Origin: a virus
Reading direction: 5' to 3' (one strand)
Virus record (IMG/VR): IMGVR_UViG_3300010392_000705
Span: 1-22,282 of that record
DNA: 22,282 nucleotides
In this document: positions 998 to 22,282 of the stretch, piece by piece
Position numbering within the stretch: the first letter of the stretch is position 1
Layout of the letters: every line of letters begins with the position of its first letter
Program-made: the position numbers and the translations under genes
The notes under the pieces: model-generated
The model's input: the letters and a program-made list of their open reading frames with translations, nothing else
Databases searched by the model: none
What the model was told of the DNA's origin: nothing

Positions 998-1011
998 TGA
1001 CATTAATGTCA
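998..1011. repeat. dispersed palindrome copy 1 (TGACATTAATGTCA)
   Basis: Perfect 14-bp inverted repeat. On the minus strand its first three bases are the TGA stop codon of the minor head gene, and it ends 7 bp before the -35 box of the promoter at 962-990. It belongs to a set of five identical copies. Confidence 0.9.
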
Positions 1012-2292
1012 GAGCACCACCAAGTCCGCAAGGATCGTGTTGGCTCCTGAGAGCTTCGCCAGCATGGCTGCTTCTGTACCTGAGTACACGTAGCGGCTGC
1101 CTGCGAGTTCCACGATCAGGGGCTTGCTGCCGCCACCCTCGTAAGCTGTCTGCAGGTCTTCCAAACGAACCTGATCAGTGATCGCTTTCAACTGCCCAAC
1201 CACTACTTCTTGCTCCACGGCAGAATCGGTCAGGAACCCAAGCTCCTGCAGGTCGTCCAGTTCTTCCTTCACATCCGGACTGGCCACTTCCATGTTCACC
1301 TTCACGCGGCTGCCGGCTGTCGATGGCTTACCATCTACGGTCCTGCGCTCAAGGTCATTGGTCAGTTCAGTGAAGCTGTCTGGTGCAGTAGTGAGGGTCT
1401 GTACCGGTGTCTGTTCTTCAATCTCCACGACACTGCCTTCCTCGGCCAGCAGACCACGACACCCCGGGTGATACGGAGGGATGTTGTAGCCTGCCTGTTC
1501 AAGCTCGGACATGCTCATTTTCTTCATGTCCGCAATGGCCTGAGCGTTCTGCTTCGGGAACGGGGCCATGGTCTTCAGGTCGTCGGGGTTGTCCACTTCC
1601 AGCAACCGGGACAGGGTGCCATAGGCCCGCTCAACCTCGAACGTCTTACCGTGCATATACCGGCAGACAGGGCAGGTCCGGGAGTCCAGCATCTCGTCCA
1701 CTTGGAACCGCTCAATACCAGTGACCATGGCCTCCACGGTGAACCCGTAGTTCGACAGGCGAGAGGTATGCAGGGAGGCTGCCGCACTGATGGTGTCATC
1801 CCCGGCCTTTTCCACCTGATCCATGTACTCGTCCAAGGTCTTGATCTTGTCCGCTTTCTGAAACACCAACCGGTCGTCGGCATTGGCCTTCTGACGCTCG
1901 GCGGCAGACAGGGCGGCGTAGGCCACTTTCTTGATGGTCTTCCGGGCTTCCATCAGGAACATTTCGAGTTGCTTGGTCCCCTTCAGAGCCGCTTCCGGTG
2001 TCTGCTTTGGTCCAGTCATGAAACTGGTTTCTTCCAAGGGCCGGACCCGGCTGGCACCAAACAACAAGGCTGAAGTGCTGATGTAGACGAGGTACTGGTG
2101 CATCCCTTTGTAGAGGGCGTCCAGTTCGTCCAGCGATTCGATCACATCCTGAGCCGTGATGGGGTCATCATCAGCAATGGCTTTCTTCAACTTGGCTTTG
2201 ATGGGGGCAAACTGGCGCTTCCACCGAGGCACCAGCCTGTCCGTCACCGACTTTTCAAGGATCAGGAAATTCTCGGGCTTAGGAGTCGCCAC
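1009..2292 (-). CDS. minor head protein, SPP1 gp7/Mu gpF-like, with degenerate ParB-like tail
   Basis: About 427 residues. The central RTCPVCRYMHGKTF and PPYHPGCRG segments form the Cys/His pattern of SPP1 gp7/Mu gpF-like head morphogenesis proteins, which attach near the portal and act in capsid assembly or DNA ejection. The last ~38 residues (IVELAGSRYVYSGTEAAM onward, ending TILADLVVL) have the shape of a ParB/sulfiredoxin-like domain, but the usual G-x-H-R-x-x-A motif is replaced by GTEAAM, so activity is unlikely. The start is taken as GTG at 2292, five bases behind GGAGG (2298-2302), giving a 14-base overlap with the portal gene. A longer reading from GTG 2388 would overlap the portal by 110 bases and has no better ribosome site. 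The stop codon lies inside the palindrome at 998-1011. Confidence 0.85.
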   Translation of the reverse strand: MATPKPENFLILEKSVTDRLVPRWKRQFAPIKAKLKKAIADDDPITAQDVIESLDELDALYKGMHQYLVYISTSALLFGASRVRPLEETSFMTGPKQTPEAALKGTKQLEMFLMEARKTIKKVAYAALSAAERQKANADDRLVFQKADKIKTLDEYMDQVEKAGDDTISAAASLHTSRLSNYGFTVEAMVTGIERFQVDEMLDSRTCPVCRYMHGKTFEVERAYGTLSRLLEVDNPDDLKTMAPFPKQNAQAIADMKKMSMSELEQAGYNIPPYHPGCRGLLAEEGSVVEIEEQTPVQTLTTAPDSFTELTNDLERRTVDGKPSTAGSRVKVNMEVASPDVKEELDDLQELGFLTDSAVEQEVVVGQLKAITDQVRLEDLQTAYEGGGSKPLIVELAGSRYVYSGTEAAMLAKLSGANTILADLVVL

Positions 2293-4084
2293 CGATGCCT
2301 CCGCACAGTTCGGCTGCACAACCACACAGTTCTGCAGAGCCTTCAAAATCCAGTTCGGTATGGAACAGCGTCTTGCTGGCCAGCACACTGTTGAACAGTG
2401 CCCGCTCAGACTTGCTGAGTCCCACGATCTGGGCCGTTACGCGCTCTACCAAGGCCTTGTCTTTACCTTTCAGGGCCTCCACCCACTGATCCACCATGTG
2501 GACCACTTCGATAGGGCTCTCAGACTTCTGAACGTTCAAGTCTTCCCCTGTGCCGGCCCCGGAGTCATTACCGGCTTCACCGGGCTTGGCGTCCCCGGGC
2601 TGTCCGGGTGTCGGAATAACCGGGCGCTTGGCTTCCATTTCCTTCTCCTTACGGGCGTCATATTCCTTCTGGTCAAACTTCAGGCCAAGGCCAGTCGCCT
2701 CGTTCAAGGAGGTTACCCAGTCTTCTGCAGAGACAACATCCTTCGCCAGCTCAAGGCCTTTGATCTGATGCTCCACATCGGAAACAGTCATTGGCTTGGA
2801 CCGGTACCAGTAGGTGTCATCACCATCCTGCAGGGCTCTCATCAGAGTCACATTGATGATTTCATCGAACTCGTCCCGCTCCGGCTTGAACACTTGGTTC
2901 TCAGCGATCATGTAGGATACGAAAGCCGTGGCGTAGTTATGGCCATCAGTCTTACCAATGAACAAGGGGGGCAAACGGAAGCTGCTACGAATACGAGCTT
3001 CGTTTTTCTCGTTGTAGGCCTCGAACATTGAGTCATTCTTCTGCTCTGCCCCAAAACGCTCAACCTTGGCTTCCACCTTACCGGCAGAGTCGATGCTACC
3101 CGAGGTTGACTGAACTTCCACCACGGCGGCCCGGGACGTATTCTTACCAGACAGGACATTGGTTAATGTCTCAATAGACTGATCAGAGGCCGTTCCCCCG
3201 GACAGGAAGACAATCGCTGGGGGGATGCCCCCGTTATCGAAGTACTCCAAGTTGAATTCTTCTGCCTTCCGGGAGCCAACCACGCTCGGAAGCTGGTTGA
3301 TCCACCGGGGGATACCATAGGGCGTATCCGCGTCTTTCTGTACCTTCAGGTGGATGATCTGGCTGCCGCGCTTGGCATAAGGCAGGCGCTCCCCCGGCTT
3401 GGCCCACTCCCCGGTATCAACGTCAACATCCCGGCTGGCCCCGAATTCCCGGAAGTACACCACGCTGGAACCAATCTTCTGAACGAACACCCGCTCCCGA
3501 GTGTTGACGGACATTTCTACCTTTGTGCCATTACGCTGAATGGTCTTCTTAACTGGCACCGGATCACTCAGCTTGCAGATACGCATGAACTGAGCCTCAA
3601 GACACCGGATGAAGACAATCTCATCCTTGGCATTGGTCAGCACTTCCAGATAAGCGTCACCCACGGATTCCAGATCACGGCGGGCCTTCCTTCGGAGAGT
3701 GGTCATGGACATACCGGGCCAAGGCTCATCAAAGAAATCCTTGATACCCTGAACCCGGTTCTTGTCCTCATCGGTCATGGGTTCTTCGTCCCGGCGCTCA
3801 ATTTCATAGCCGGTCCCGTCCACGTTCACTTCCATGGCTGCAATACACTGGCCAAGGGTGTTGTTCTCCTGACGGAATCTCAGCAAGCGGGTACGGTCAT
3901 AGGGAGGACGGATAACCATGTTCTCTGATTTGTCGGGGGAGACATACATCCCCTGAAAGGCGTCTTCAGCTTCCAACGCCTGAGAACCGACCTCCGAGAC
4001 CTCCTTCTTCTCAACCTTGACCTCATGAACCACATACTTATTCGTTGACAGTTCGGACTCAGAGCCCTTCTTTTGGTCGCTCAC
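2279..4084 (-). CDS. phage portal protein (PBSX-like family)
   Basis: 601 residues. Portal proteins form the dodecameric ring at one capsid vertex through which DNA is packaged and ejected. The sequence follows the PBSX-type pattern: an early AAMEVNVDGTGYEIERR stretch, the RRKARRDLESVGDAYLEVL helix, the IIHLK...YGIPRW segment and the FNLEYFDNGGIPPAIVFLSG segment. The C-terminal part has a Pro/Gly-rich linker (TPGQPGDAKPGEAGNDSG) and a Cys-rich end, which I cannot assign. The start is GTG at 4084 behind TAGGAG. It lies 42 bases after the DNA polymerase stop, with no convincing promoter between them, and its end overlaps the minor head gene, the usual portal/gp7 order. No terminase is visible in this window. 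Confidence 0.9.
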   Translation of the reverse strand: MSDQKKGSESELSTNKYVVHEVKVEKKEVSEVGSQALEAEDAFQGMYVSPDKSENMVIRPPYDRTRLLRFRQENNTLGQCIAAMEVNVDGTGYEIERRDEEPMTDEDKNRVQGIKDFFDEPWPGMSMTTLRRKARRDLESVGDAYLEVLTNAKDEIVFIRCLEAQFMRICKLSDPVPVKKTIQRNGTKVEMSVNTRERVFVQKIGSSVVYFREFGASRDVDVDTGEWAKPGERLPYAKRGSQIIHLKVQKDADTPYGIPRWINQLPSVVGSRKAEEFNLEYFDNGGIPPAIVFLSGGTASDQSIETLTNVLSGKNTSRAAVVEVQSTSGSIDSAGKVEAKVERFGAEQKNDSMFEAYNEKNEARIRSSFRLPPLFIGKTDGHNYATAFVSYMIAENQVFKPERDEFDEIINVTLMRALQDGDDTYWYRSKPMTVSDVEHQIKGLELAKDVVSAEDWVTSLNEATGLGLKFDQKEYDARKEKEMEAKRPVIPTPGQPGDAKPGEAGNDSGAGTGEDLNVQKSESPIEVVHMVDQWVEALKGKDKALVERVTAQIVGLSKSERALFNSVLASKTLFHTELDFEGSAELCGCAAELCGGIGGDS

Positions 4085-4126
4085 AGCTATCTCCTAATCA
4101 TCCCGGGTTTTGTCAAGAATACAGCC

Positions 4127-7100
4127 TCAGGCCGCCTCTTGCATATCTCCCATGTTGGGTCCGTACTCGTAATCCACATCGAAGTGCAACTGGGGATTCC
4201 AGCCCACCTTCTCGAACGGCAGGTTCTCCATAATCTCCCGCACCAGAGGCACCCAATAGTCGAACTCGTCTTCCTTCACATAGGCAGTCAGGGCGTCATG
4301 GGTCATGGCAAAGAACCGACAACCATCGGGCTCTCCATAATTCTGGTGGAACTCAGCCAGTGCCCAGCAACTCATGTCTGAAAGGGTAGCCTGAATCGGT
4401 GAGTTTATCGACTGTCTTTCAGCCTTGGACCGAGTGGCATTATCCCGAGCATTGATCAGCGGCAGGTGACGTACCCTACCCAGTGGTGACCTGATGTGGC
4501 CATGGTGGTGAGCGAACTTCTTGAAGTTTACGTGCCAGTCCGGGAGGCCAGCATACAGGGCGAAGAAGGCGTCCCGCTGTTTCTCGGCTTCCTCCAAGGT
4601 CAGCACCACCCCATAGGTGGCAAAGGCGTAGGCTTGGTAGCCGGCTGCCGACATGCCATAGATCAGTCCGAAGTTACCGGCTTTCCCACCTTGCCGGATT
4701 TTCTTGATCAGCTTTTGCTGCTCCTCGTCATCTGACTTCTTCATGGCCAGCGCATCAGTAATATCAATGCCGTTCAACTGCGCTCCCGTTCTCAGGTGGA
4801 GGTCAATACCCTGTCGGTAGGAATCCAGCATGTTCGGCTCATTGGCCACGCAAGCCGTGATCCGTAGCTCACCTTGAGAGTAGTCCCAGTTCACGACTAT
4901 GTACCCGGGCGGGGCTATGTACCCTCGCCGTAATTCTTGGGCCCAGTTCGTGTGCTTTGGTACGGTCTGGAAGGCCGGGTCTTTAAACGCCAGCCGGCCA
5001 GTCAGGGTTCCAGAATCATCCGAGTCCCCATAGGCTCCCTTGTAGAGGATCGCCGTTGGGTGCAAGCGACCGTCTGCCCTCAGGTGACTCATGAAACCAG
5101 TGACATAGGTGCCCAGTGTTTTCTTGGCCTTACTGTAGTTGCTCAGAGCTTGGATGAAGGGGCCAGCATCTTGGTGGTCAATAAATTGCTTCAGGTGATC
5201 CATGGCCGTAGAGGCATGTTCATGGCCCGGATTATCCTTGGGTGCCTTGGCCGTGTATTCCAGTGGCTTCAGGTTCAGTCCCCTCGGGCTAAACAGGAAG
5301 TCTGTCAGTATGCGGGATCGGGTCAGACTCAGGTTGTCCTTGTACTTCAACTGCAAGCGCCGGGGTAGCATCTTCATCGCCCGGTCGTTGAGGAACTTCA
5401 GTTCTTTCTCCAACTCGGTCTGCAGCTTCATGTAGTGGTCAACGTCTACCAGCACCCCTTCCCGTTCCATGGCCTCAAAAGCTACCGAAGCTGGGTGCAG
5501 GATGGTCTGGTAAAACCGTTTCAACTTGGGGTCTTTGGCCAGTTCCTTTAGCTGAGCATTCGACACCCTCAAAGTGGCATCAGTGTCACCCCCGGCGTAC
5601 AGGAGCAGAGGTTCATCCGGCACCAAGTCCATGCGGCCTTTGTCATACTTCTTGTTGAATGAATTATGGGAGGCAATACCTTCCGCCACGAAAGTATGGC
5701 AATCCGTTTCAAGGCTCACTACCTCAATAGGTCCAATAGGGGTTACCGATTCCACGTAAACCTTCTCGGTGCCTGATGGTATGCACTTACCCTCGTACCC
5801 ATACTTACTCAATAGTCGCACAGGTCTTAGTAACTGCAGCATCTGTAATGTTGGCGCTCCGGAGTGCTTACTGGTGTGAACTCCATCACTGTTCTTCTGT
5901 CGAGAATAAAATCCTGAAAGGCCTATGTTCGCCATACCCTTGCAGTATTTTTTCCAGACAAGTCCGGGGGCTTGGCTCAAACCAGATACCAACCCCATAC
6001 CACCAGAAGACAAGTACCCCTCCCCGTCATACAGGCCTGATAAGTACCCTGCCTCCCATGTATGTAGGGGCTCCCGGGGATCAATCACGGACATAGCCCT
6101 AACACCGGGTTTCAGTTCATAAGCCCGTACCCACTGGAAAGGACCATTGTTCTTGTATCGGTGAGCCAAGAATCCGTGATCATCACTACAACGGATAGTG
6201 ACCCCGTTGGAGAACTCTACCTCTACCCCGGATTTCGTTAGGCGCTTGGTAGACACTGCTCTGGCTCGTCGCATACGGCGGCGTTCGCCCTGAGTAGTGA
6301 TTTCTTCATCAAACCCAAGAAGCCCATCCCCCGACTTAACATCCCCAATAGGGACCCATCGGAGGTCATCAGTGCAAACCAGTGTCTCAGGGGCTACACA
6401 GTCATCATACCCGCCCATGCTGGTATACACCTTGGCATGGGTGTTCAGGCTGTTGCTCCGGTTCTCATCCAACAGGGAGCCAACAAGGGTGGTGTCCATT
6501 TTGAAGGCTGTGCTTAGCAACCCCCACTTCTCACGAATCCACACGGCGTCATATTTGTAGTTCGCGCCCCGGAGCCGGATGTTCGGTGAGTTCAGGAGCC
6601 AGTTTATCTGGTCGTGCAAAAGGCTCCCTTTCTTCGGTTGGTCATCATGCCCTTGGAATCGGATAACATCAGCCATCCCTTCCCGGTAGGTCAGGCTAAT
6701 CGAGACAATGAAGGTTTCGGGGTTGTAGGGGTCGAGGGTCAGGGTTTCCAAGTCCACTGATATGACTGGTTTCTTGCCTTCCTCGTCAATCATCTTTTCC
6801 AGCAGGTATACGGCTTCGGTGTAGTCATCAACGTACCGGTAGTCACCAACATCAGGTTCTTCCTTACCGGTTACCGCCGTTCGGCAGGCCAAGGCCGTGT
6901 CCAGCTTCAGGTTCACCCACATACCATAGTCAATGTTCATGATGCCGGCGTCGAAGGTGACAAAGTACTTCACCCCCTTGTGTTCAATCCCGGTCCCACG
7001 GAGTGAGCTTATGGTTCGATTCTTGGGCACAACCTTGGCATCAGCCAGAGCCTTTATCGCTTTTGAGCCCATCGCCAACACAACATCCCCCGGACTTGCC

Positions 7101-7222
7101 GGGGGTAATGTGGTCTGACTGTCTACCACCACCTTGTGTGGGGGTGGCCCCCACCCGGATACGGTGGGGCCTATGGCTTTTTTGAGTTCTTGTCCACTGG
7201 TAGAAGTCCAGAGTATCAACAT
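4127..7222 (-). CDS. polA: family A DNA polymerase with UDG-like N-terminus, 3'-5' exonuclease and intein
   Basis: 1031 residues, or 785 after removal of the intein. Residues ~1-125 resemble a degenerate uracil-DNA glycosylase fold (GDVVLAMGSKAIKAL, then SSLRGTG), an arrangement known from the SPO1 polymerase. The DnaQ-like 3'-5' exonuclease shows Exo I (D157, E159), Exo II (NYKYD, D225) and Exo III (Y542, D546). The polymerase domain shows motif A (D780, DYSQGELR), motif B (R843, K847, F851, Y855) and motif C (H975, D976). Motif A has Gly where Ile is usual. F851 corresponds to E. coli Phe762, a state linked with virulent phages. There is no 5'-3' exonuclease domain. The intein is residues 275-520. 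The ATG at 7222 overlaps the previous stop (TGATG); a GTG at 7240 in frame is less likely. It replicates phage DNA. Confidence 0.95.
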   Translation of the reverse strand: MLILWTSTSGQELKKAIGPTVSGWGPPPHKVVVDSQTTLPPASPGDVVLAMGSKAIKALADAKVVPKNRTISSLRGTGIEHKGVKYFVTFDAGIMNIDYGMWVNLKLDTALACRTAVTGKEEPDVGDYRYVDDYTEAVYLLEKMIDEEGKKPVISVDLETLTLDPYNPETFIVSISLTYREGMADVIRFQGHDDQPKKGSLLHDQINWLLNSPNIRLRGANYKYDAVWIREKWGLLSTAFKMDTTLVGSLLDENRSNSLNTHAKVYTSMGGYDDCVAPETLVCTDDLRWVPIGDVKSGDGLLGFDEEITTQGERRRMRRARAVSTKRLTKSGVEVEFSNGVTIRCSDDHGFLAHRYKNNGPFQWVRAYELKPGVRAMSVIDPREPLHTWEAGYLSGLYDGEGYLSSGGMGLVSGLSQAPGLVWKKYCKGMANIGLSGFYSRQKNSDGVHTSKHSGAPTLQMLQLLRPVRLLSKYGYEGKCIPSGTEKVYVESVTPIGPIEVVSLETDCHTFVAEGIASHNSFNKKYDKGRMDLVPDEPLLLYAGGDTDATLRVSNAQLKELAKDPKLKRFYQTILHPASVAFEAMEREGVLVDVDHYMKLQTELEKELKFLNDRAMKMLPRRLQLKYKDNLSLTRSRILTDFLFSPRGLNLKPLEYTAKAPKDNPGHEHASTAMDHLKQFIDHQDAGPFIQALSNYSKAKKTLGTYVTGFMSHLRADGRLHPTAILYKGAYGDSDDSGTLTGRLAFKDPAFQTVPKHTNWAQELRRGYIAPPGYIVVNWDYSQGELRITACVANEPNMLDSYRQGIDLHLRTGAQLNGIDITDALAMKKSDDEEQQKLIKKIRQGGKAGNFGLIYGMSAAGYQAYAFATYGVVLTLEEAEKQRDAFFALYAGLPDWHVNFKKFAHHHGHIRSPLGRVRHLPLINARDNATRSKAERQSINSPIQATLSDMSCWALAEFHQNYGEPDGCRFFAMTHDALTAYVKEDEFDYWVPLVREIMENLPFEKVGWNPQLHFDVDYEYGPNMGDMQEAA
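5663..6400 (-). mobile_element. intein in the DNA polymerase, with one LAGLIDADG-like motif
   Basis: This in-frame insertion of 246 residues interrupts the polymerase between Exo II and Exo III. It begins with Cys (CVAPETLVCTDD, block A) and has a block B variant CSDDHGFL, where the usual T-x-x-H is S-x-x-H. A single LAGLIDADG-like motif, GYLSGLYDGEGYLS, sits in the middle. It ends with block F/G, HTFVAEGIASHN, followed by Ser as the first C-extein residue. These are the residues needed for class 1 splicing, so splicing is expected. Only one LAGLIDADG motif is visible, so the homing endonuclease is either reduced or works as a dimer. Confidence 0.93.
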
Positions 7223-7638
7223 CAGGCGGCTTCCTCCCACTCCTCGCCGTTCAGGGTAAAGCTGGCAACGACTGCAGGCTTGGTTACTTTGTAGAGTTCA
7301 TCAATGCTGCCAGCGTCTTCCCACTTGAAGTCCAGCCCCAGCTTAGACTTTGACATTAATGTCAGAGCCAGCCATGAGCCGGAGACTGGGTGGTGGGTGC
7401 TATCCACCATCATCACCAAATCAGAACTGGACTCGGAATCCTTTACGGCCAAGTCCAGAATCAAGGTGGTAGAGGCAGTCCCAAAATCCAGTGTCTTGGT
7501 CACTTTGAATCTGAACTCAATGTTAGACCATGGCAGGGTGAAAGTCTGCTCTCCTCGCACCTTGGATTCCTTCGTCAGGATCATGTGCATGTTCAGGGCG
7601 TCACAAATAGGGTAGACCCGGGTTCTCATCTGGCTCAT
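7222..7638 (-). CDS. hypothetical protein upstream of the DNA polymerase
   Basis: 138 residues, family not recognised. It looks like a mixed beta-rich globular protein, with alternating hydrophobic stretches (TLPWSNIEFRFKV, TLILDLAVK, PAVVASFTL) and an acidic end (GEEWEEAA). The start overlaps the previous stop (ATGA) behind GGAGG, and the stop overlaps the polymerase ATG (TGATG), so it belongs to a tightly coupled operon with the polymerase. A replication-accessory role would fit that position but nothing in the sequence proves it. The gene carries an in-frame copy of the dispersed palindrome, read as Leu-Thr-Leu-Met-Ser. Confidence 0.8.
   Translation of the reverse strand: MSQMRTRVYPICDALNMHMILTKESKVRGEQTFTLPWSNIEFRFKVTKTLDFGTASTTLILDLAVKDSESSSDLVMMVDSTHHPVSGSWLALTLMSKSKLGLDFKWEDAGSIDELYKVTKPAVVASFTLNGEEWEEAA
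7351..7364. repeat. dispersed palindrome copy 2, inside a coding region
   Basis: Exact TGACATTAATGTCA within the gene upstream of the polymerase. The flanks match copy 1 on one side, so 17 bases (TGACATTAATGTCAGAG on the plus strand) are shared. The reading phase differs from the copies at stop codons. Confidence 0.9.
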
Positions 7639-8688: not shown

Positions 8689-8717
8689 AGTATCTAACAG
8701 TTCAGGGCGTTTGTCAA
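8689..8717 (-). promoter_or_regulatory. sigma70-type promoter, cassette copy 2
   Basis: Minus-strand TTGACA (8712-8717), a 17-bp spacer and GATACT (8689-8694), followed by an AATTCACGGAGGG leader. It drives the operon that leads to the DNA polymerase. The stop codon of the upstream phosphatase gene lies inside the -35 hexamer. There is no palindrome at this copy. Confidence 0.87.
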
Positions 8718-9394
8718 AGGTTTTTGGCTTTGTGAACCTTGTTGCCGACCCCAGCTTTGCGGTCCCCATGGATGCAGTGACTCACTCTCATGGGGCTCAG
8801 GCGTTCATCCCCTTGTGGAGACTTACTGTAGTTTGCAGGCGGCATGGACGGGTGCTTCGCCGCTTTCTTTGCTACCTTGGTGCCTTGGGCCTTCACGATA
8901 CCGAAATTCTTGTGCAGCCAGTCCACCTGTACCGCAGACTCTACCGCTTTCTGACAGTAGTTCTCCCGAACCCAGTTGATCGAGTCCTTCTCCCCGGACA
9001 GGTGAGTCACCAGAGCTGCAAGGAAGGTACCGGTTCGTCCATGGCCCCCGATGCACCCGGCATGGACTTTCTTGCCGGCGTACATTTGCTCTGCAGTCCA
9101 CTCGATCAATTTTCGGAACTGGGTCACCGATTTCGGGGCCTGCATATCGGTGATGGGGAAGAACACAAATTCTCCCGGTAGCCATGGCATAGACTGGGGC
9201 ACCAACACGTAACCACGGTCAAAGGCAATCAGTACATCCATGCCTTCCGGTGGGGTGTTGGTGCAGGAGCCGCCATGGATAAACAACTCTTTGCCTTCTT
9301 TGTCGATGATCTTGAGAACCGGGTGGCTCTCGTAGCAACGCTTCGGCTGAGTCCAGCCATTGGATGCTTGGTTACTGTAATACGATGCGCCCAT
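8714..9394 (-). CDS. protein tyrosine/dual-specificity phosphatase-like protein 1
   Basis: 226 residues. The signature H-A-G-C-I-G-G-H-G-R-T-G gives a Cys-X5-Arg P-loop with nucleophile C114 and phosphate-binding R120. ITDMQAP around D83 is a candidate general-acid loop at the right distance. This is the hallmark of the Cys-based PTP/DSP superfamily, which hydrolyses phospho-Tyr, phospho-Ser/Thr or, in some branches, other phosphoesters. Residues after ~165 form a basic tail. There is no signal peptide, so it should act in the host cytoplasm. The ATG follows GGGGA and lies 12 bases after the 338-residue gene, so the two are co-transcribed. The TGA stop lies within the -35 box of the next promoter. 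A second phosphatase is encoded 1.1 kb upstream. The substrate is unknown. Confidence 0.85.
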   Translation of the reverse strand: MGASYYSNQASNGWTQPKRCYESHPVLKIIDKEGKELFIHGGSCTNTPPEGMDVLIAFDRGYVLVPQSMPWLPGEFVFFPITDMQAPKSVTQFRKLIEWTAEQMYAGKKVHAGCIGGHGRTGTFLAALVTHLSGEKDSINWVRENYCQKAVESAVQVDWLHKNFGIVKAQGTKVAKKAAKHPSMPPANYSKSPQGDERLSPMRVSHCIHGDRKAGVGNKVHKAKNL

Positions 9395-9405: not shown

Positions 9406-10422
9406 TTATGCAGCGATCAGGTCTTTCCGTTTGAGTTTCTTCACCTTCACATGTGGAGTCACATAGAAGAATTCTTCTTTCTCTTTCTTGGCTTTCTTCT
9501 CCGCGACTTCCGGAGTGTTGTTCATCTTAATGGCCCAAGCATGGTAGTTACCATGGGAGCCAAGTTTCATCACCTTCTCCCAGTCGATATGGGTTTCCCA
9601 ATCGGCTGACAGCTTGGCGTCCCGCAACCACTCATAAGTCTTCAGGGCCGGGATCGAAATCTTGTTAAAGAACTTCATGCCTGCATTGTGGCTATAGAGC
9701 AGTTGAGGAATCTGGCCAGACCGCTGAACATCAAGCATCTGCACCAGTTCTTGGGAGTACATGTTGTAGAGCATCCCCTTGTTGAAGATGGGCCCGTTGT
9801 TGTGGCATAGCGTCCAACCGGTGTCCACCATCATTTCCGGGGTGTAAGCCGCACTTACGTACCGGTTCAGGGTCCGAGCTACTTCACCCCATGCAGGGCC
9901 ACCATAGCCCCCCGAGAACTTGCCCTTGAAGAACACGTACTCCATGAAATCCGTGTAAACCCCGAGGTTCACGTTCGGAGCACTGGACTTCAGCTTGCTC
10001 ACCGCACCACCTGAACCACTGCCTTGGATACTGTTCAGGAAATTCCAGCACTCAATGGGGTAGTTAGCCACTTGTATCGCCCCCGGGTTTTGGCAGTGCC
10101 GGGTCTCCCGAGTGCAGATCATCAGCAGGTAGTAGAACAACCGCTCCATGATCTGAGAGCATTGCTGGGTGTAACCCAAGGCCACGTCCAGATGCTCTTG
10201 TGGCAACGGCTGGTCTTTGTGGTACATCAAGTTCAGTTCCGCCCATGCGTGGTTCATCATGTAGAACCTGAGGGCTTCTTCTTCCGGTTCAGCACTAGAA
10301 CCCAGTGCGTTCACCCGTTGTTTCATGGTGGCCACACAGTCTTTAAGACTGGCATTCGTGGCATAGGTATTGGGGATCAGGAATGGCTTTTTGCTTATTT
10401 CAGCTAGGGTATTGGCTACCAC
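9406..10422 (-). CDS. conserved-looking phage protein of unknown function
   Basis: 338 residues from the preferred GTG start at 10422, seven bases behind GGAGGG (10430-10435). An ATG at 10437 would place that ribosome site inside the gene, so I reject it. No known domain is recognised. The protein is mostly helical in the first half. The centre holds a motif-like stretch (GYGGPAWGEVARTLNR, then TGWTLCHNNGPIFNKGM), which has the look of a conserved core with Cys, His and Asn. The C-terminus is very basic (VAEKKAKKEKEEFF, KVKKLKRKD), possibly for nucleic-acid contact. It is the first gene after the promoter at 10457-10485 and is followed by phosphatase 1 after 12 bases, so the two may act together. 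Confidence 0.82.
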   Translation of the reverse strand: MVANTLAEISKKPFLIPNTYATNASLKDCVATMKQRVNALGSSAEPEEEALRFYMMNHAWAELNLMYHKDQPLPQEHLDVALGYTQQCSQIMERLFYYLLMICTRETRHCQNPGAIQVANYPIECWNFLNSIQGSGSGGAVSKLKSSAPNVNLGVYTDFMEYVFFKGKFSGGYGGPAWGEVARTLNRYVSAAYTPEMMVDTGWTLCHNNGPIFNKGMLYNMYSQELVQMLDVQRSGQIPQLLYSHNAGMKFFNKISIPALKTYEWLRDAKLSADWETHIDWEKVMKLGSHGNYHAWAIKMNNTPEVAEKKAKKEKEEFFYVTPHVKVKKLKRKDLIAA

Positions 10423-10429
10423 TTGCTTT

Positions 10430-10435
10430 CCCTCC
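10430..10435 (-). promoter_or_regulatory. ribosome site that decides the GTG start at 10422
   Basis: GGAGGG followed by AAAGCAA and GTG. In the other cassette leaders GGAGGG lies 4-9 bases before the start codon, which supports GTG 10422 over the ATG at 10437 that would overlap this site. Confidence 0.75.
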
Positions 10436-10456
10436 ATGAGTTTTTATTACCCTGTT

Positions 10457-10485
10457 AGTATCGCCCACCCGGCTACGTTTGTCAA
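10457..10485 (-). promoter_or_regulatory. sigma70-type promoter, cassette copy 3
   Basis: Minus-strand TTGACA (10480-10485), a 17-bp spacer and GATACT (10457-10462), then an A-rich leader and GGAGGG. It drives the 338-residue gene and phosphatase 1. The palindrome at 10504-10517 ends 18 bp upstream of the -35 box. Confidence 0.87.
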
Positions 10486-10503: not shown

Positions 10504-10517
10504 TGACATTAATGTCA
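10504..10517. repeat. dispersed palindrome copy 3
   Basis: Exact TGACATTAATGTCA. On the minus strand its first three bases are the stop codon of phosphatase 2. It lies between that gene and the promoter at 10457-10485, the same arrangement as copies 1 and 4. Confidence 0.9.
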
Positions 10518-12193: not shown

Positions 12194-14314
12194 TTAGGAG
12201 AAGATTTGAAAAGCAAGTTTCTCCTCCTTGACTGGGTTCACCGGCTCAGCAATGGTCTTCCCATGGGCCTTCATCACGGCCTTCAGGGTATTGTACGTCT
12301 TGGTGTCACCCACCACGTTCTTGATGAATTCTTCATCCGGTATGCCGTTTCCTGAGAGCAGGTCTTTCAGTGTGCCTGCGGCCTTTAGGAGCTTCACGTT
12401 CTCCGGGACTTTAAGGGTACTGACTTGCACCGTACCCGGGAGCAGGGCCACCACTTCTCTGCCGGCTTCTCCCAGCAAGGTCATGTGGTGGTTGATCCAG
12501 TCCCGTTCCTCTTTGGTCGGGTTCTTACCCAACATCTGAATCATCAACCTGTCTTCGGCATCCAGATTTGAAAAGGGGCCATCAAACTCGACATACAGGG
12601 TGCCAGTCACCTTCTCACCGAGGGCCCGCAACTCCTTCACAGGGTCTTCATTGAAGGTTCCTGTGCCAAGCCTCAGGCAGTAGTCCTTGGTCACCAGCAG
12701 TAGCCCTTCAGGTGGGTGGGCGTCCCCGCAGAGCAGTGACCCTGAGCCTTCTGTCAGAAGGTGAGCAGCATGGTAATTAACTTCTCCGGGTATCACTTCC
12801 TTGGCCCCAATCCAGACATTACCGGTGGAGCCATCAATGGTGATCAGGTCACCTGACTGCACCTGTGTTCCGTCCCCCATGATCAGGGTTCCGTTGACAA
12901 TGGCCAGTTCAGTGCACCCAACAACACACACCTTGTCCATGCCCCGGGCAACAACTGCCGCATGGCTGGTCAGGCCCCCGGTCTGGGTCAATATACCAAC
13001 AGAGAGGTTCATAGCAACAATGTCATCAGGGGTGGTTTCTTTCCCAACCAGAATAGCCGGGTGACCCTCCTCCGAATTGATCTGCTTCACCTGATATTCC
13101 GTGAAGGCCACTCTGCCGGTAACAACCCCACCACCAGCGGCAATACCGGTAGCCTGTGGCTTTCCTGCAGAGTCCTTGTTGATCGCGGGGGTCTTCAAAG
13201 CCAAGTACTGGGCCACAGTCACCCGGGTCAGAGCTTCCTCGGTGGTCAATACTCCCTCGCTCACCATGTCAGAGGCAATCCGGAAGGCCGCCTTGGCAGA
13301 CCGTTTCCCGTTCCGACATTGGAGGATGTAGAGCTTGCCGGCTTGCACCGTGAACTCCACGTCTTGCATGTCCTTGTAGTACTCCTCCAACCGCATGGTG
13401 TGATCACAAAGTTCTTGGTAGGCCTCGGGGTTCCACTTGTTCATCTGGTCGAGCGGGTCCGGGGTCCGGATGCCGGCCACTACGTCCTCACCCTGAGCGT
13501 TCACAAGGAACTCCCCTGTTATTACAGGGTCACCATTGCTTGGGTTCCGGGAGAACAACACGCCAGTACAGGACTTGTCATTGAGGTTGCCGAATACCAT
13601 GGACTGGATGTTGACCGCAGTGCCCCACTCATCGGGGTAGCCGTGCATTTCCCGGTAGGCTTTGGCCCGGTCACAGTTCCATGACTCGAACACCGCCGTG
13701 ATCGCCCATTCCAACTGCTCAATAAAGGTGTCCGGGAATTCCGTGCTATGGGTCTGATAGACGATCTTGTAGCGCCCTATCAGGGTGTCTAGCTGGGCCA
13801 CGGAAAGCTCATGATCATGGGTGACCTCGGCTGTTTTCTTCACTTCCCCCAAGGCACCTTCAAATTCTTCTTTAGGGATACCAAACACCACGTCACCCAT
13901 CATTTGCATGAGGCGGCGATAGGAATCCAGTGCGGCCCGTTTACCAATGCGTTCCGCCCACTCAGGCAGTGACTCCGAAGTCAAGCCCACGTTCAATATG
14001 GTGTCCATCATACCCGGCATGGATACCCGGGCACCCGAGCGAACACTAACCAGTGGGAAGTAGCCAAAGTGCTCCTTCAGGTCATTCAAGTGAATGTAGA
14101 CTTCGTTCTTCAGCAGGTCTGTGACAACATCGTCACCCTTACCAGAGTGCAGGTATTCATTGCAGACTTCCGTGGTGATCGTAAAGCCCGGGGGGATCGG
14201 TAGGTTCAGGTTGGCCATCTCTGCAAGGTTGGCACCTTTGCCACCCAGCAGTTCACGCATTTCTGCGTTGCCTTCTGTTCCGAGCCCGGGGCCAAATGTG
14301 TAGGTTTTCTTCAT
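12194..14314 (-). CDS. PPDK-like dikinase lacking the PEP/pyruvate-binding domain
   Basis: 706 residues against ~875 for pyruvate phosphate dikinase. The ATP-grasp part is strongly PPDK-like: LGGKGANLAEM, VRSGARVSMPGMMDTILNVG (~91-110), GVLFSRNPSNG, GEFLVNAQGEDVVAG and LQCRNGKRS. The phosphohistidine domain is intact: GGLTSHAAVVARGMDKVCV with H451 as catalytic His and T449 at the site that PPDK regulatory proteins phosphorylate. From ~510 on, the TIM-barrel landmarks (RTEHMFF, GHRGCRL, CGEHGG) are missing, replaced by ~195 unrecognised residues. It should take phosphate from ATP onto His but is unlikely to make PEP; rifampicin phosphotransferase and glucan water dikinase show such domains can serve other acceptors. 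ATG 14314 is behind GGAGGG in the promoter leader, and the gene is promoter-proximal. Confidence 0.9.
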   Translation of the reverse strand: MKKTYTFGPGLGTEGNAEMRELLGGKGANLAEMANLNLPIPPGFTITTEVCNEYLHSGKGDDVVTDLLKNEVYIHLNDLKEHFGYFPLVSVRSGARVSMPGMMDTILNVGLTSESLPEWAERIGKRAALDSYRRLMQMMGDVVFGIPKEEFEGALGEVKKTAEVTHDHELSVAQLDTLIGRYKIVYQTHSTEFPDTFIEQLEWAITAVFESWNCDRAKAYREMHGYPDEWGTAVNIQSMVFGNLNDKSCTGVLFSRNPSNGDPVITGEFLVNAQGEDVVAGIRTPDPLDQMNKWNPEAYQELCDHTMRLEEYYKDMQDVEFTVQAGKLYILQCRNGKRSAKAAFRIASDMVSEGVLTTEEALTRVTVAQYLALKTPAINKDSAGKPQATGIAAGGGVVTGRVAFTEYQVKQINSEEGHPAILVGKETTPDDIVAMNLSVGILTQTGGLTSHAAVVARGMDKVCVVGCTELAIVNGTLIMGDGTQVQSGDLITIDGSTGNVWIGAKEVIPGEVNYHAAHLLTEGSGSLLCGDAHPPEGLLLVTKDYCLRLGTGTFNEDPVKELRALGEKVTGTLYVEFDGPFSNLDAEDRLMIQMLGKNPTKEERDWINHHMTLLGEAGREVVALLPGTVQVSTLKVPENVKLLKAAGTLKDLLSGNGIPDEEFIKNVVGDTKTYNTLKAVMKAHGKTIAEPVNPVKEEKLAFQIFS

Positions 14315-14345
14315 CTTACCCTCCGTGAATTTTTGGTGCAGTTCT

Positions 14346-14374
14346 AGTATCTCGCACCCCGGTACGTTTGTCAA
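14346..14374 (-). promoter_or_regulatory. sigma70-type promoter, cassette copy 4
   Basis: Minus-strand TTGACA (14369-14374), a 17-bp spacer and GATACT (14346-14351), followed by AATTCACGGAGGG. It drives the dikinase gene. The stop codon of the BRCT gene lies inside the -35 hexamer, as at copy 2. Confidence 0.87.
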
Positions 14375-15260: not shown

Positions 15261-15289
15261 AGTATCAACTACCCCCGGCAATTTGTCAA
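15261..15289 (-). promoter_or_regulatory. sigma70-type promoter, cassette copy 5
   Basis: Minus-strand TTGACA (15284-15289), a 17-bp spacer and GATACT (15261-15266), then an A-rich leader and AAGGAGGG. It sits just after a terminator, so it starts a new transcription unit of four small genes. The palindrome at 15330-15343 is 40 bp upstream of the -35 box. Confidence 0.88.
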
Positions 15290-15329: not shown

Positions 15330-15343
15330 TGACATTAATGTCA
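15330..15343. repeat. dispersed palindrome copy 4
   Basis: Exact TGACATTAATGTCA. The stop codon of the NlpC/P60-like gene forms its first three minus-strand bases. Next downstream come the terminator and then the promoter. Confidence 0.9.
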
Positions 15344-15856
15344 CTCAATGGATTGCACCCGAGAAACAAACCGGCACATACGAAGGAACTCCCCCGGTGC
15401 CGGGGTCTGGGAGAACTTAACACCGCAGGCCTCCCAGATACGCGCAACAAATGTTGAGCACACTATACCTCTAGTGCGTCTACGCTTACCTGTCAACTGA
15501 TGCCACCACACACGGAACAGAGACAGGTAGCCATACTTGCTCTCTCGGTAGTGGAAGGCCAGCTCTCGGGCCACGTCTGGCTGTTGGTAGACCTTCTCTG
15601 GGGCGTACCCGATATACAGGTTGCCAGACTTGCTACGCAGGTAATCATCTATCCATAGGGAGGCAGGCCGCAGGCGGTAGCCCACAAACTCCTTCATCTC
15701 TGCCACCCATAGGGTTTCATTGATCCAGATGAACACTGCCACATGGCTGATCTGCTGGGCCGTGAGCATCTTGATCAGTGTGCTCACGAACCCTTTGCCT
15801 TCACACAGAAGCAGGTCACCTGACTGGATATGTGGTCGCTCATCCAAGTACTTCAT
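15341..15856 (-). CDS. permuted NlpC/P60 (YiiX/YaeF-like) hydrolase
   Basis: 171 residues. The order SGDLLLCEG, then SHVAVFI with H38, then RGIVCSTFVARIWEACG with C133 is that of circularly permuted papain-like enzymes of the YiiX/YaeF type, in which His precedes Cys. Family members act as cysteine amidases or peptidases on cell-wall peptides or lipids. There is no clear signal peptide. The start overlaps the lipoprotein stop (TGATG), and the gene ends the four-gene operon before the terminator. A role in cell-wall cleavage or entry/exit is reasonable; lipid or peptide deacylation is also possible. The stop codon is embedded in palindrome copy 4. Confidence 0.75.
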   Translation of the reverse strand: MKYLDERPHIQSGDLLLCEGKGFVSTLIKMLTAQQISHVAVFIWINETLWVAEMKEFVGYRLRPASLWIDDYLRSKSGNLYIGYAPEKVYQQPDVARELAFHYRESKYGYLSLFRVWWHQLTGKRRRTRGIVCSTFVARIWEACGVKFSQTPAPGEFLRMCRFVSRVQSIE

Positions 15857-16302: not shown

Positions 16303-16312
16303 GCTTCTCTCC

Positions 16313-16771: not shown

Positions 16772-16773
16772 GG

Positions 16774-17418: not shown

Positions 17419-17433
17419 AACTTTCCTCGTCAT

Positions 17434-17458: not shown

Positions 17459-17466
17459 CCTACATC

Positions 17467-17835: not shown

Positions 17836-17845
17836 GATCTACCCC

Positions 17846-18256: not shown

Positions 18257-18266
18257 GGTTCATTCC

Positions 18267-19826
18267 TCATAAGTCAACATAGAGCTTGTTGGTCGTAACT
18301 ACCACACTACGACCTTCGGTTAAAACTTCCAAACTTTTTACCGGCCCGAGTACTGCCGGCTCCCCCGGGAATAGAGCAATCGCCATGTAATAGGTTGGCT
18401 CCATTACCAAAGACTGTAGCGCAAGCTGAGCATTTTGCGAGAGCGCCAGACGAGAAAGTTCTGGTGCAAGGTCGATCACCCCCGTACTCAGTTTGTGCGT
18501 TACTCCCATGGAAACCCGGGACACCTTGGGCTCCACGACTACCGACTCACAGGACAAAGAGTGCTCCTGCACTACTGCAGCCGATGAGACATTTACCGAT
18601 ACAACCAGATTTTCAGTTTCAAGAATCTGCTGAGCACCCTGCCCCAAAGTCAGATCATTGACGGTCGGTGTGACATTAATGTCACTGGCGTCAAGTTCAT
18701 GGGTCTGAGTCAGTGTTAGCCCAACAAACTGCGGTTCTACCTGAAGGCTCCCGGCCTCCAACAGGTGGTCTACCTGCAGGGTCACCACCGACAGGTCCGG
18801 CTCCATGACCAAGCCTTCCGCTGTGACTTGATGCTCCTGCACCATCACCGCGCCAGAAGTGGTCGGGACCATCCGTATGGAGGCTGGCACTATGGTATCC
18901 GTGACTATCTCCACGAGAGTCGGAGTGCTTACCATGGGTTGCATCTGCAGACTGGCAACAGCGCCCTCGTGGGTCTGTCCAAGGGCAAGGTCGGTCACTG
19001 TCGGGGTTACCTGCAGTGACTCGCTTTCCAGTGCCGAGGTGTGAACCACGGATGCGGTGGATACCTCGGGCTCCATAGCCATGGATCGGGTATCAAGTAC
19101 CTGTGTCTGGCTAAGGGTCAAACCCGAGACTTCCGGGACCACCTCAAGCGGTGCCGGCTGCATACTTCCCTGCTGCTCCACCTCGACACCAGACAGGGTG
19201 CCTTCCATGGCCAGAGAGTCTGTTGCCAGCCCATGGGTCTGCACTGCCAAAGCGGTGGATACGGTAGGGGTAACCTGAAGGCTGCTGGCATCAAGAGCCT
19301 GAGTTTGGTTCAAGGTAAGGCCAGATACCTTGGCTTCCTGTACCAGTGATTCCGACACCATGCTGTGGTTCTGGGTAACCGCCACCCCAGATACCGTTGG
19401 GGTCATCTGCAGGGATTCTGACTCCACCTCGTGCGTGTTGGTCGCACTAATACCGGTGAGTGTCGGGGTCAGCTGAACCGACTGGGTATCAAGGCTATGA
19501 GCCTGTGACGCAGCCGCCTCAGACAGGGTTGGAGTAACCTGAATACTATCGGTTTCCAAAGCATGGGTCTGGCTCAGGCTCACACCGCTCACGGTGCCTT
19601 CCATCACCAAGCTATTGGTATTCAGGTTGGCCGTAGCCGAGATAGTGGTGAATGACTCCCACGCAGACCAAGCTGAGACGTTGGTTCCGTCATCCTCCTG
19701 AACCCGGAATTCATAGTCAGTCAGTTGGGTCAGCCCGGACAGGTTGTAAAACTCGTCCGTAATGTTCTCTACAAGAACCTCGTTCCCAACGTCACCAAGC
19801 TCCCGCCACTCAAGATTATAGGCCAT
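18267..19826 (-). CDS. repeat-rich tail fibre-like protein beginning with half an FN3 domain
   Basis: 519 residues. The first ~62 residues (YNLEWRELGDV, LTQLTDYEFRV, SAWSAWESFTT) are the C-terminal two thirds of a fibronectin type III domain whose first strands lie at the end of the preceding gene. Then come 18 tandem units of mostly 22 residues (two are 24) of the type S-L-x-M-x-P-T-V-S-G-x-x-L-x-Q-T-H-x-L, plus a partial unit. A short C-terminal domain ends TTNKLYVDL. Such regular beta repeats suit an elongated trimeric fibre or beta-solenoid. The ATG at 19826 overlaps the preceding stop (TAATG). An in-frame extension to 19841 has no value as a start. It may belong with the LamG gene as one product. 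An in-frame copy of the palindrome lies in unit 14/15. Confidence 0.82.
   Translation of the reverse strand: MAYNLEWRELGDVGNEVLVENITDEFYNLSGLTQLTDYEFRVQEDDGTNVSAWSAWESFTTISATANLNTNSLVMEGTVSGVSLSQTHALETDSIQVTPTLSEAAASQAHSLDTQSVQLTPTLTGISATNTHEVESESLQMTPTVSGVAVTQNHSMVSESLVQEAKVSGLTLNQTQALDASSLQVTPTVSTALAVQTHGLATDSLAMEGTLSGVEVEQQGSMQPAPLEVVPEVSGLTLSQTQVLDTRSMAMEPEVSTASVVHTSALESESLQVTPTVTDLALGQTHEGAVASLQMQPMVSTPTLVEIVTDTIVPASIRMVPTTSGAVMVQEHQVTAEGLVMEPDLSVVTLQVDHLLEAGSLQVEPQFVGLTLTQTHELDASDINVTPTVNDLTLGQGAQQILETENLVVSVNVSSAAVVQEHSLSCESVVVEPKVSRVSMGVTHKLSTGVIDLAPELSRLALSQNAQLALQSLVMEPTYYMAIALFPGEPAVLGPVKSLEVLTEGRSVVVTTNKLYVDL
18414..19613 (-). repeat. tandem 22-residue (66-bp) coding repeats, 18 units
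   Basis: Units begin near SLVMEGTVSG and continue to residue ~471 of the fibre. Period 22 residues in 16 units and 24 in two (units 11 and 15). Key pattern: aliphatic-x-aliphatic at 2-4, Pro at 6, Val/Leu-Ser at 8-9, Gln-Thr-His near 15-17, acidic at the end. DNA copies are well diverged, so this is an old expansion rather than fresh slippage. Confidence 0.88.
18671..18684. repeat. dispersed palindrome copy 5, inside the repeat fibre gene
   Basis: Exact TGACATTAATGTCA, read as Ser-Asp-Ile-Asn-Val-Thr. It replaces the usual residues at the start of a repeat unit (DINVTPTV in place of SLQVTPTV), and uses a third codon phase. Confidence 0.9.
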
Positions 19827-21304
19827 TATCCTTGCTCCCAAGTCAGAGTCACAGAAGTCGGTTGCAGGTTCTCAAACCCGAGATTTACGGGGGTATTCAC
19901 GCCAACCGGGATAAGCCAACCAGTGTCATTGTTTGCAATCAAATCTAGGTGGATGGATTCAAGTTGTTCTTCAGTCAGAACACCCTTACCCATCTCGGCA
20001 TAGTAAATCTGACCCTGCACGTTCCGGTTGAGGCTTCCCCGGTTACCAAGTGACAAAATACGGTTGGTGTTGTTAATCCGACCCAAAACATCTGACGAAC
20101 CATAGTTTGAACCAGCAATCGACCGGTATTGCCCGTCAGTCATGACACGGATGCGCGACTCAGAGCCAAGTTCATCCATGTCAATCTGGATAACAAGGGT
20201 GTGCGGATCAGTGTCTCCGGGGTTGTAGTAAAAAGAGGCCGTGTGCCCCGTACCCCCAGATTCGTTATCAAAACGAACAACCCACAGGTCGTTTTCTTCC
20301 TTAACAATCGAAATGTCCGTATTGCCGCTGGAAGTACCAATGGCGAATAGGCGCATACCATTTGGATGCCCGACTATGTTAGCCAGCACCATAGCGAACC
20401 AGAAGGTTTTTTCCCCATCGAGTTCCGCACCAAGGTTACCGTTTGCAACGATATTATCGAGTCTGGCTATACCGCTATTGGAAACACTCGGACTATTAGT
20501 GAAATCAAGCCCTTTGCCGGAGGCAATAGAAGTCCACTCCAACGCATTGTTATAGTCCAACGTCAGATCATTACCATTACCGGTATCATCGGCAGTGGTG
20601 GTTGGGGCAGTGCCGCTCGATGCCTCACTTAGCAGGAACCGACAAAGGCTTGTAGCGTTACTTGCGTTTACCGAGCGAGCCCTTCCAGCCCCGACGCCAG
20701 TCGTGAGGCTGAATACAGCGACTTCAACCTGAGAGTTACGACCAGTCTGCAAGAAGAATCCGATTGCTCCGGGGTCACTTATAGAAAATTCACCCCAACT
20801 ATTAGAACCATTAGGTTCTTCTGACCCTTCAGGCCACGCCTTGAAATATAAGGTGGTGCTGTCGGTTTCAACCCCACCTGCGCCACGAAGTCTTACCCAA
20901 AACCATCCAGTGCCTTGGTATTGCCCTACATTCACTGCGCGTGACGTTTCCGCACCGGCTTGAAATATTCGGCCTTGCTCTTTATCTGGGTCCGGGCTCA
21001 TACCATAGACAAGCCCTGTTACATCACTCTCCATTCGAGCGGCCACATTAGCGTAACCGTCGAGATCACGAACCAAGGCGAGAAGTTCAAAATCTGCCCT
21101 GCCTGCATCCGCATCAACAGGGTCATACTTGACCATACCGTAATTGGCAGGGTTACCAGTTCCGTTGATCCGTAGGCATTTCCCATGCCCGTTGGCGGTA
21201 TTGTCTACTATGGTGATAGACCTCCCGGTACCAAACAAAACAGACCAATCTGCAGGGGACTGCCCCACAGTTTCATCAGAAAAATCGGTGAAATACCCCG
21301 CCAT
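19826..21304 (-). CDS. two-LamG lectin-like tail/adhesion protein
   Basis: 492 residues. Two concanavalin/LamG-type jelly-roll regions are apparent. The first (~1-210) starts FTDFSDETVGQSPADWSVLF. The second (~215-455) runs from CRFLLSE through GKGLDFTNSPSVS, EKTFWFAMVLANI and GQIYYAEMGKGVLTEEQLES, the classical LamG ending. These domains bind sugars, so it is a candidate receptor-binding or fibre protein. The last ~25 residues (TPVNLGFENLQPTSVTLTW) are the first strands of a fibronectin type III domain that is completed in the next gene, one frame away. The ATG at 21304 follows GGAGATGGGTC. The stop TAA overlaps the next ATG. Confidence 0.82.
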   Translation of the reverse strand: MAGYFTDFSDETVGQSPADWSVLFGTGRSITIVDNTANGHGKCLRINGTGNPANYGMVKYDPVDADAGRADFELLALVRDLDGYANVAARMESDVTGLVYGMSPDPDKEQGRIFQAGAETSRAVNVGQYQGTGWFWVRLRGAGGVETDSTTLYFKAWPEGSEEPNGSNSWGEFSISDPGAIGFFLQTGRNSQVEVAVFSLTTGVGAGRARSVNASNATSLCRFLLSEASSGTAPTTTADDTGNGNDLTLDYNNALEWTSIASGKGLDFTNSPSVSNSGIARLDNIVANGNLGAELDGEKTFWFAMVLANIVGHPNGMRLFAIGTSSGNTDISIVKEENDLWVVRFDNESGGTGHTASFYYNPGDTDPHTLVIQIDMDELGSESRIRVMTDGQYRSIAGSNYGSSDVLGRINNTNRILSLGNRGSLNRNVQGQIYYAEMGKGVLTEEQLESIHLDLIANNDTGWLIPVGVNTPVNLGFENLQPTSVTLTWEQG

Positions 21305-21327
21305 GACCCATCTCCACTAATTCTAGG

Positions 21328-21420
21328 TTACTCCTGATACTGATAGACCCCTTCCGAGTCCACCATCTCAAAATACAAGTTGAGACGGTGGAGGCTTTCT
21401 CTTAATTCGGAGAAAGTTGG
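21328..21420 (-). other. protein-like -1 frame extension of the secreted FN3 gene
   Basis: After the FN3 protein stop at 21402-21404, the -1 frame is open (21331-21465) and reads FSELRESLHRLNLYFEM, then VDSEGVYQYQE and TAA at 21328. It has natural-looking composition but no usable start or ribosome site of its own. A -1 shift near CAACTTTCT (21411-21419) would add ~28 residues to the FN3 protein. It may be a frameshift, a recent mutation or a sequence error. Confidence 0.45.
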
Positions 21421-21761: not shown

Positions 21762-21832
21762 GGTTGAACTCCTTTCGAGGTTTTAGGTACTGCGACCCCC
21801 CAAGTCTGTTACCTCGATCCGGATATGTCCAG

Positions 21833-22060
21833 TCAAACTTTGAAGACAGGTATCTGATTGGCCCGCTTGGTCCGGCCCTTCAGCACCCCACCCTCAATGC
21901 GAACCTCGTCGCCCGGGTAGGCAGTCACACCACCGGAAGGTACGGTGATCAGGCCGGCTGAGGTCATCACTCGGAAGTTCTTTCCCTCGATTGACACGAC
22001 TTCACCACTTACAGGGGTTGTGCTTTTTAGAAGGTCACGAATCTTCTGATAGGGGTTCAT
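21833..22060 (-). CDS. small OB/SH3-like hypothetical protein
   Basis: 75 residues. A short helix (NPYQKIRDLLKS) is followed by beta strands (SGEVVSIEGKNFRVMTSAG, ITVPSGGVTAYPGDEVRIEG) typical of small OB-like barrels found in baseplate or tail proteins. The ATG overlaps the preceding stop (ATGA). The end is basic (KGRTKRANQ). Its function is not known; linkage to the partial gene before it, which has a similar strand pattern, suggests the two work together. Confidence 0.75.
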   Translation of the reverse strand: MNPYQKIRDLLKSTTPVSGEVVSIEGKNFRVMTSAGLITVPSGGVTAYPGDEVRIEGGVLKGRTKRANQIPVFKV

Positions 22061-22282
22061 TCAAGTCTCTCCACGGTCAACTCGGTAAGTACTTCAGGGC
22101 CACTGGTCTGGTGAGCGATTCCACCAACTTTCCCCACCCATGTTGTTCCCTGCAAGGCGTCCATAACCGCCACGGTTTGGCCCCGGCGAATGCCAGTCCG
22201 ATAATTTGATATTAATATCACTTCTTTCTGCCCGGACTTGGAATCTATCTCGTTTCGTCCTTTCTGCAGAGCTACCGGTACG
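22057..22282 (-). CDS. partial gene, 3' end of small beta-rich protein
   Basis: Only the last ~74 residues are in the window; the start is beyond 22282. The visible part has strands such as KEVILISNYRTGIRRGQTVAV and TWVGKVGGIAHQTSGP and ends LTVERLE. It looks like a small OB-like or barrel domain. Not recognised. The TGA stop overlaps the next ATG. It contains the variant palindrome, read as Val-Ile-Leu-Ile-Ser. Confidence 0.72.
   Translation of the reverse strand, partial: VPVALQKGRNEIDSKSGQKEVILISNYRTGIRRGQTVAVMDALQGTTWVGKVGGIAHQTSGPEVLTELTVERLE
22207..22220. repeat. variant dispersed palindrome (TGATATTAATATCA)
   Basis: Perfect 14-bp inverted repeat differing from the five identical copies by one symmetric base change in each arm. 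The symmetry of the change is what a two-fold-symmetric binding protein would tolerate. It is 3.5 kb from copy 5, in line with the spacing of the others. Confidence 0.7.

Follow-up and report, generated by a model that had tools for sequence, protein, structure and literature searches.

Dispersed 14-bp palindromes in the genomes of a siphophage clade and a phrog_17202 protein as their candidate binder

Background

The matS, NBS and SBS sites are dispersed palindromes of 12-14 bp that occur in both coding and non-coding DNA, and each set is served by its own dimeric protein (MatP, Noc and SlmA, respectively). Among phages, the stoperators of mycobacteriophage L5 are asymmetric, follow the direction of transcription, occupy short intergenic gaps and serve as binding sites of the immunity repressor. 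The conserved inverted repeats of phiC31 and the C1 operators of phage P1 are likewise dispersed repressor operators, tied to promoters and immunity. On plasmid RK2, KorB represses transcription both from an OB site located 4 bp upstream of the -35 box (in a tested construct) and from a site 1.5 kb away (PMC11790492). Here, we describe a 14-bp palindrome, TGACATTAATGTCA, found in IMG/VR virus record IMGVR_UViG_3300010392_000705 (positions 1 to 22,282; this whole stretch of 22,282 nucleotides is referred to below as the window) and in related phages, together with a candidate binding protein, S50, of the family phrog_17202. Sequence comparisons make it very likely that a protein docks at this palindrome, which recurs every 2 to 5 thousand bases across the genomes of a phage family. 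A search of the open-access literature, with subscription papers outside its reach, returned no earlier report of these sites.

Results and discussion

Palindromic sites in the phage genome

The window contains five exact copies of TGACATTAATGTCA and one symmetric variant, TGATATTAATATCA, where about zero would be expected by chance; TGAYATTAATRTCA occurs six times in the window and 0 times in 100 dinucleotide shuffles. The preliminary description of this DNA, made from the sequence alone, had placed copies at 998, 7351, 10504, 15330 and 18671 and the variant at 22207 and had judged their number to be beyond chance, and our analysis agrees on both points. As had been described, three of the exact copies provide the stop codon of a gene and precede a promoter; both the genes and the promoters are on the minus strand, the codon is TGA, and the promoters are sigma70-like, of the form TTGACAAAY-N13-GATACT. 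The site at 998..1011 ends the gene at 1009-2388 and is followed after 7 bp by a promoter at 962..990 (TTGACA-N17-GATACT; scaffold position 21293), while the site at 10504..10517 ends the gene at 10515-11027 and is followed after 18 bp by a promoter at 10457..10485 (scaffold 11798). The site at 15330..15343 ends the gene at 15341-15856, with its promoter (15261..15289; scaffold 6994) beginning 40 bp on and a terminator-like hairpin with a T run between the two. The remaining copies, at 7351..7364, 18671..18684 and 22207..22220 (the variant), are intragenic, as also reported, and fall within minus-strand genes at 7222-7638, 18267-19841 and 22057-22281 (open at the window end), respectively. The proposal that all three codon phases are used holds only with the stop-codon copies included, as the three copies within genes occupy two phases.

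The window is a complete IMG/VR record, and a scan of viral contigs with the 14-mer gave two more contigs of the same sample (3300010392), these sources being metagenomic contigs. The first, IMGVR_UViG_3300010392_000345 (35 kb), continues the window end through an exact overlap of 127 identical bases and contributes six exact and three one-mismatch copies. The joined scaffold of 57,271 bases carries 15 sites (≤2 mismatches) separated by gaps of 0.7-6.4 kb, and its gap coefficient of variation (CV) of 0.38, versus 0.94 for random placement, indicates a spacing more even than chance. The second contig, _000490 (13 kb, with capsid and tail genes on the same strand), has no overlap with the scaffold, probably belongs to the same phage, and carries two exact and two one-mismatch copies. 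The preliminary description had suggested looking for further copies elsewhere in the genome, and this check came out in favour of its reading, with both exact and one-mismatch sites. Single exact copies of the 14-mer in other viral contigs were discounted, since among loci L002-L121 S50 was found only on the contig of this phage. A near-identity search of phage records returned no match.

A contig with two copies (L029) was rejected as a further example of a set, since it is a microvirus contig with the 14-mer in a coding stretch, which suggests coincidence. L228 was dropped as a second TGAC-type set because its four sites resemble GC-rich coding repeats. On L118, a 12-kb contig in which S50 was not detected, sites lie at 5643, 7833, 9331 and 11374; three are TGGCATTAATGCCA and one is TGACATTAATGTCA, with an identical core and a different outer pair.

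Site sets in related phages

Comparison of terminase, capsid and ParB-like proteins groups this phage with Stenotrophomonas phages DLP5, DLP3 and Summit, Vibrio phages PG28, KarBoss, VHS1 and SIO-2, Rhodobacter phage RcZahn and Rhizobium RHph phages, a clade of siphophages. Each tested isolate that carries S50 possesses a palindrome set of its own, mostly of the form TGCAA-N4-TTGCA, with about 15-50 sites per genome, many of them intragenic. DLP5 carries about 35 copies of TGCAATYRATTGCA, PG28 carries 35 copies of a TGCARTTAAYTGCA-like site and KarBoss carries 43 copies, including hybrids such as TGACATTAATTGCA. The sets of VHS1, PJ32 and RcZahn number 25, 24 and 21, respectively, and that of RHph_Y1_11 is TGCAATTTRTTGCA-like. 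In all seven relatives measured the spacing is more even than random, strongly so in DLP5, PG28, KarBoss, VHS1 and PJ32 (CV 0.37-0.57) and marginally in RcZahn (CV 0.69, P 0.045) and RHph_Y1_11 (CV 0.65, P 0.06). The sites are also more conserved than their surroundings: between DLP5 and DLP3, 33 of 34 sites are kept and the sites are 97.7% identical, as compared to 82.1% for the flanks and 82.6% for the genomes overall, and between VHS1 and PJ32 identity is 85% in sites and 73% in flanks. The homologous sets and their conservation above the flanks bear out the earlier view that selection acts on the DNA rather than on the encoded protein, and strongly support a site set that is real, selected and clade-wide.

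S50 as the candidate binding protein

The S50 gene lies outside the window, on the adjoining contig (L122:12364-13152). It encodes a protein of 262 aa that matches phrog_17202 (E-value: 3e-79), a family of unknown function; the DLP5 counterpart is encoded at 47761-48564 of MG189906. S50 is among the proteins of this phage that are common to all eight relatives, and was also found with a hidden Markov model in the distant site-bearing phages FBPa45, RcKickapoo, L338C, HJ05 and SIO-2. It was singled out because nearly all other proteins conserved in this way have a readily assigned role. A MerR-like gene, S43, was rejected as the binder because it is missing in RcZahn, RHph and RcKickapoo.

A helix-turn-helix is predicted in S50: an AF2 model of its DNA-binding half (pLDDT 92.5) places helices at residues 75-83 and 87-103 in full-length numbering. 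When the fold was compared with the DNA-binding domain of Noc, the resemblance was not significant (E-value: 2.8, TM 0.48 to target), and a search of S50 family members for a ParB_N domain returned no match. Two other features of the family were noted: residues from about 172 to 215 read as strand-helix-helix (TFKLHEDQRETIRTALDKA...DAVALEYICMQYL), possibly a ribbon-helix-helix, and in some Vibrio orthologs the protein ends in a long lysine/alanine-rich, histone H1-like tail.

The distribution of S50 follows that of the sites. All eight S50-positive genomes have site sets, with SIO-2 showing only three sites by exact pattern and 16 by a motif-free search. All four S50-negative genomes lack sets (TGCAA-N4-TTGCA matches: 0, 0, 0 and 1), three of them confirmed by motif-free search; the four are KellEzio, which has a ParB-like gene, and PatrickStar, IME392 and NootNoot, which have a homologous terminase. 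FBPa45 and RcKickapoo, picked via terminase and ParB-like genes, carry both S50 and sites. An S50 alignment search gave 78 viral loci, and motif-free clustering of palindromic 14-mers identified a set in most of them, including sets with the drifted motifs TCCAATYRATTGGA, GGCAATCAATTGCC, TGAAATTAATTTCA and TGCAAGCGCTTGCA. TGCAA-N4-TTGCA has a density of 0.213/kb in S50 loci and 0.008/kb in control viral loci, a 26-fold difference. Furthermore, 44 of 77 loci have a site ≤260 bp upstream of S50, where 8.7 would be expected, and the arrangement is often site, 7-9 bp, TTGACA. In this phage the site is at scaffold position 34426, the promoter at 34448 and the S50 gene at 34519.

Residue changes in S50 accompany changes in the site. 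Of 86 S50 proteins, 85 carry R88 and Y92, whereas that of L184 carries S88 and H92 (R88S/Y92H); the two residues are separated by a single turn of the putative recognition helix. The 94-kb contig of L184 carries 13 copies of TCCAA-N4-TTGGA and 0 of TGCAA-N4-TTGCA, and is the only genome with sites changed from G to C at position 2. In three Rhizobium-like loci, G114K accompanies an altered site centre. As each covariation may be a single evolutionary event, these are regarded as support rather than proof. Taken together, the link between S50 and the sites is strongly supported, and on these sequence-based grounds S50 very probably binds the palindrome.

Possible regulation by promoter-linked sites

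S50 is probably both a regulator acting at these sites and an organiser of the genome. The chief alternative is a purely transcriptional set (repressor operators and stoperators, or an activator regulon), comparable to the L5 stoperators or the phiC31 inverted repeats, with every site either influencing initiation or blocking elongation. The scaffold has fourteen near-identical TTGACAAAY-N13-(C)GATACT promoters on the gene strand, of which nine follow a palindrome and five do not (the -35 ends in the window are at 990, 8717, 10485, 14374 and 15289). Nine of the 15 sites of this phage lie 4-40 bp upstream of such promoters. The distance from site end to -35 box is phase-locked across relatives, mostly 7-9 bp and 18 bp in three cases. 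In the genomes tested, all but one of the promoter-linked cases are on the gene strand, where random expectation is <1 per genome. Sites not wholly within an open reading frame (ORF) are also commoner than coding density predicts, and genome-wide silencing is plausible because DLP5 is a temperate phagemid (PMC5834331). The DNA of the DLP5 phagemid prophage is heavily modified (PMC5834331). However, in DLP5 a recognisable promoter follows only one of 35 sites and most sites are intragenic, contig _000490 has none of these promoters despite its four sites, and operators would not be expected to be evenly spaced. Because most sites in relatives are intragenic and without a recognisable promoter, a pure repressor-operator reading is too narrow, and we consider a solely transcriptional set possible but unlikely.

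Other explanations for the palindromes

The phage also encodes a ParB-like protein (L123:5131-5970) with a ParB_N domain at gathering score, which could use the palindromes as parS sites to segregate a plasmid-like prophage; DLP5 does exist as a phagemid (PMC5834331). The gene is directly downstream of an in-gene site at scaffold 45208 and is syntenic with the ParBc gene of DLP5. However, it was not detected in site-bearing VHS1, PJ32, SIO-2 and FBPa45 and is present in site-free KellEzio, a phylogenetic profile on which the ParB-like protein was rejected as the binder, and neither DLP5 nor KarBoss has a conserved site upstream of ParB. As parS sites are also normally clustered, partition of the ParB type is improbable. 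Still less credit can be given to the idea that the recombination and nuclease set of the phage (RecA, Cas4-like nuclease and helicase) recognises the palindrome as a Chi-like or self-marking sequence. One site per 2-5 kb, indifference to coding and co-conservation with RecA and nuclease genes would suit such a sequence, but known Chi sites are asymmetric and strand-biased, and the promoter phasing, the site upstream of S50 and the S50 covariation would be left unexplained. That the palindrome encodes an RNA hairpin, for processing or as a terminator, is highly implausible: it is a perfect inverted repeat and several copies stand at gene 3' ends, but five pairs round a four-base loop would be weak, in the transcribed strand the single-arm variants TGACATTAACGTCA and TGACATTAATATCA each lose a pair, and relatives such as DLP5 carry most of their copies within genes.

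Proposed role of S50

We propose that S50 would bind the palindrome as a symmetric dimer through its helix-turn-helix, with residues 87-103 (YRKAMYLI...) as recognition helix. With copies kept every 2-5 kb in coding and non-coding DNA, S50 could occupy regularly spaced points of the genome or bridge between them. At the subset of sites 7-9 bp upstream of a -35 box (or 18 bp, one helical turn more), including that at its own promoter, bound S50 would influence both RNA polymerase and the production of S50 itself, by either repression or activation. If residues 88 and 92 contact the site, an L184-type S50 would prefer TCCAATTGATTGGA over TGCAATTGATTGCA, with the reciprocal preference for a DLP5-type protein.

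Several observations weigh against this proposal. About a third of the S50 loci show no clear set, within 20 kb or less each. The presence/absence profile alone cannot single out S50, since polymerase, RecA, helicases and other core genes are inherited along with it, and the decisive covariation comes from one deviating lineage. In this phage the half-site has changed from TGCAAT to TGACAT, and no residue change in S50 obviously matches this. A fold search of the PDB with the S50 model gave no significant match (best E-values: 0.23 and 0.97), and a Pfam search found nothing convincing, including no match to MatP. Finally, even spacing could reflect an organiser, a silencing roadblock or something else. 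A combined regulator and genome organiser is offered as the best, if unproven, inference. The preliminary description had named an operator or stoperator set, a segregation or replication site and a nucleoid-protein site as candidate roles; the candidate protein is now narrowed to one family, whose role may lie in regulation, in organisation or in segregation.

These findings suggest a testable function for a hitherto unassigned core protein of a widespread group of phages, one that includes Stenotrophomonas, Vibrio and Pseudomonas phages studied for therapy. Although the site sequence has drifted, tens of evenly spaced sites have been retained across the gene bodies of this clade, which suggests genome-scale organisation in phages, which is known mainly from bacterial chromosomes and plasmids.

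Other genes of the window

The minus-strand genes read in the window include those for an AAA ATPase, a Mu-F-like protein, a portal protein, DNA polymerase A, a pyruvate phosphate dikinase (PPDK), a BRCT protein and tail/lysis proteins; no plus-strand gene was read. The translation of the DNA polymerase A gene (4127-7240) shows an apparent intein at ~5700-6390 (CVAPETLVCTDDLRW...HTFVAEGIASHN), between the exonuclease and polymerase domains. The PPDK-like gene (12194-14374) is kept in DLP5 and in the Vibrio, Rhodobacter and Rhizobium relatives and was not found in more distant site-bearing phages. Two tyrosine-phosphatase-like proteins (8714-9394 and 10515-11027) flank 9406-10437; the PHROG label of thymidylate synthase on this family looks like a transferred misannotation.

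Comparison with known systems

The KorB/OB system of RK2 resembles the sites described here in that short sites are dispersed over a replicon of tens of kb, one copy lies just upstream of a -35 box (4 bp for KorB, 7-9 bp here) with others far from promoters, and the regulator may have a replicon-wide role; because KorB acts both near and far, a dual local and long-range role for S50 is plausible (PMC11790492). Unlike KorB, a ParB-type CTPase clamp, S50 has neither a ParB_N domain nor a Pfam match, and its sites are more numerous and, in relatives, mostly intragenic. As with L5 stoperators, many sites are dispersed within one phage genome, but those described here are symmetric, often intragenic and also present in phages described as lytic. 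The phiC31 inverted repeats and P1 C1 operators are similarly dispersed through a phage genome, and we know of no even spacing of these across gene bodies. The many palindromes in coding and non-coding DNA are also reminiscent of matS, NBS and SBS, although those systems are cellular and cover chromosome domains, whereas S50 is phage-encoded and its likeness to Noc is not significant. We tentatively suggest that phrog_17202 proteins at evenly spaced palindromes, in coding and non-coding DNA of a broad siphophage clade, might form a previously undescribed viral counterpart of matS/MatP or Noc, one that compacts, segregates or globally silences the genome while regulating its own promoter.

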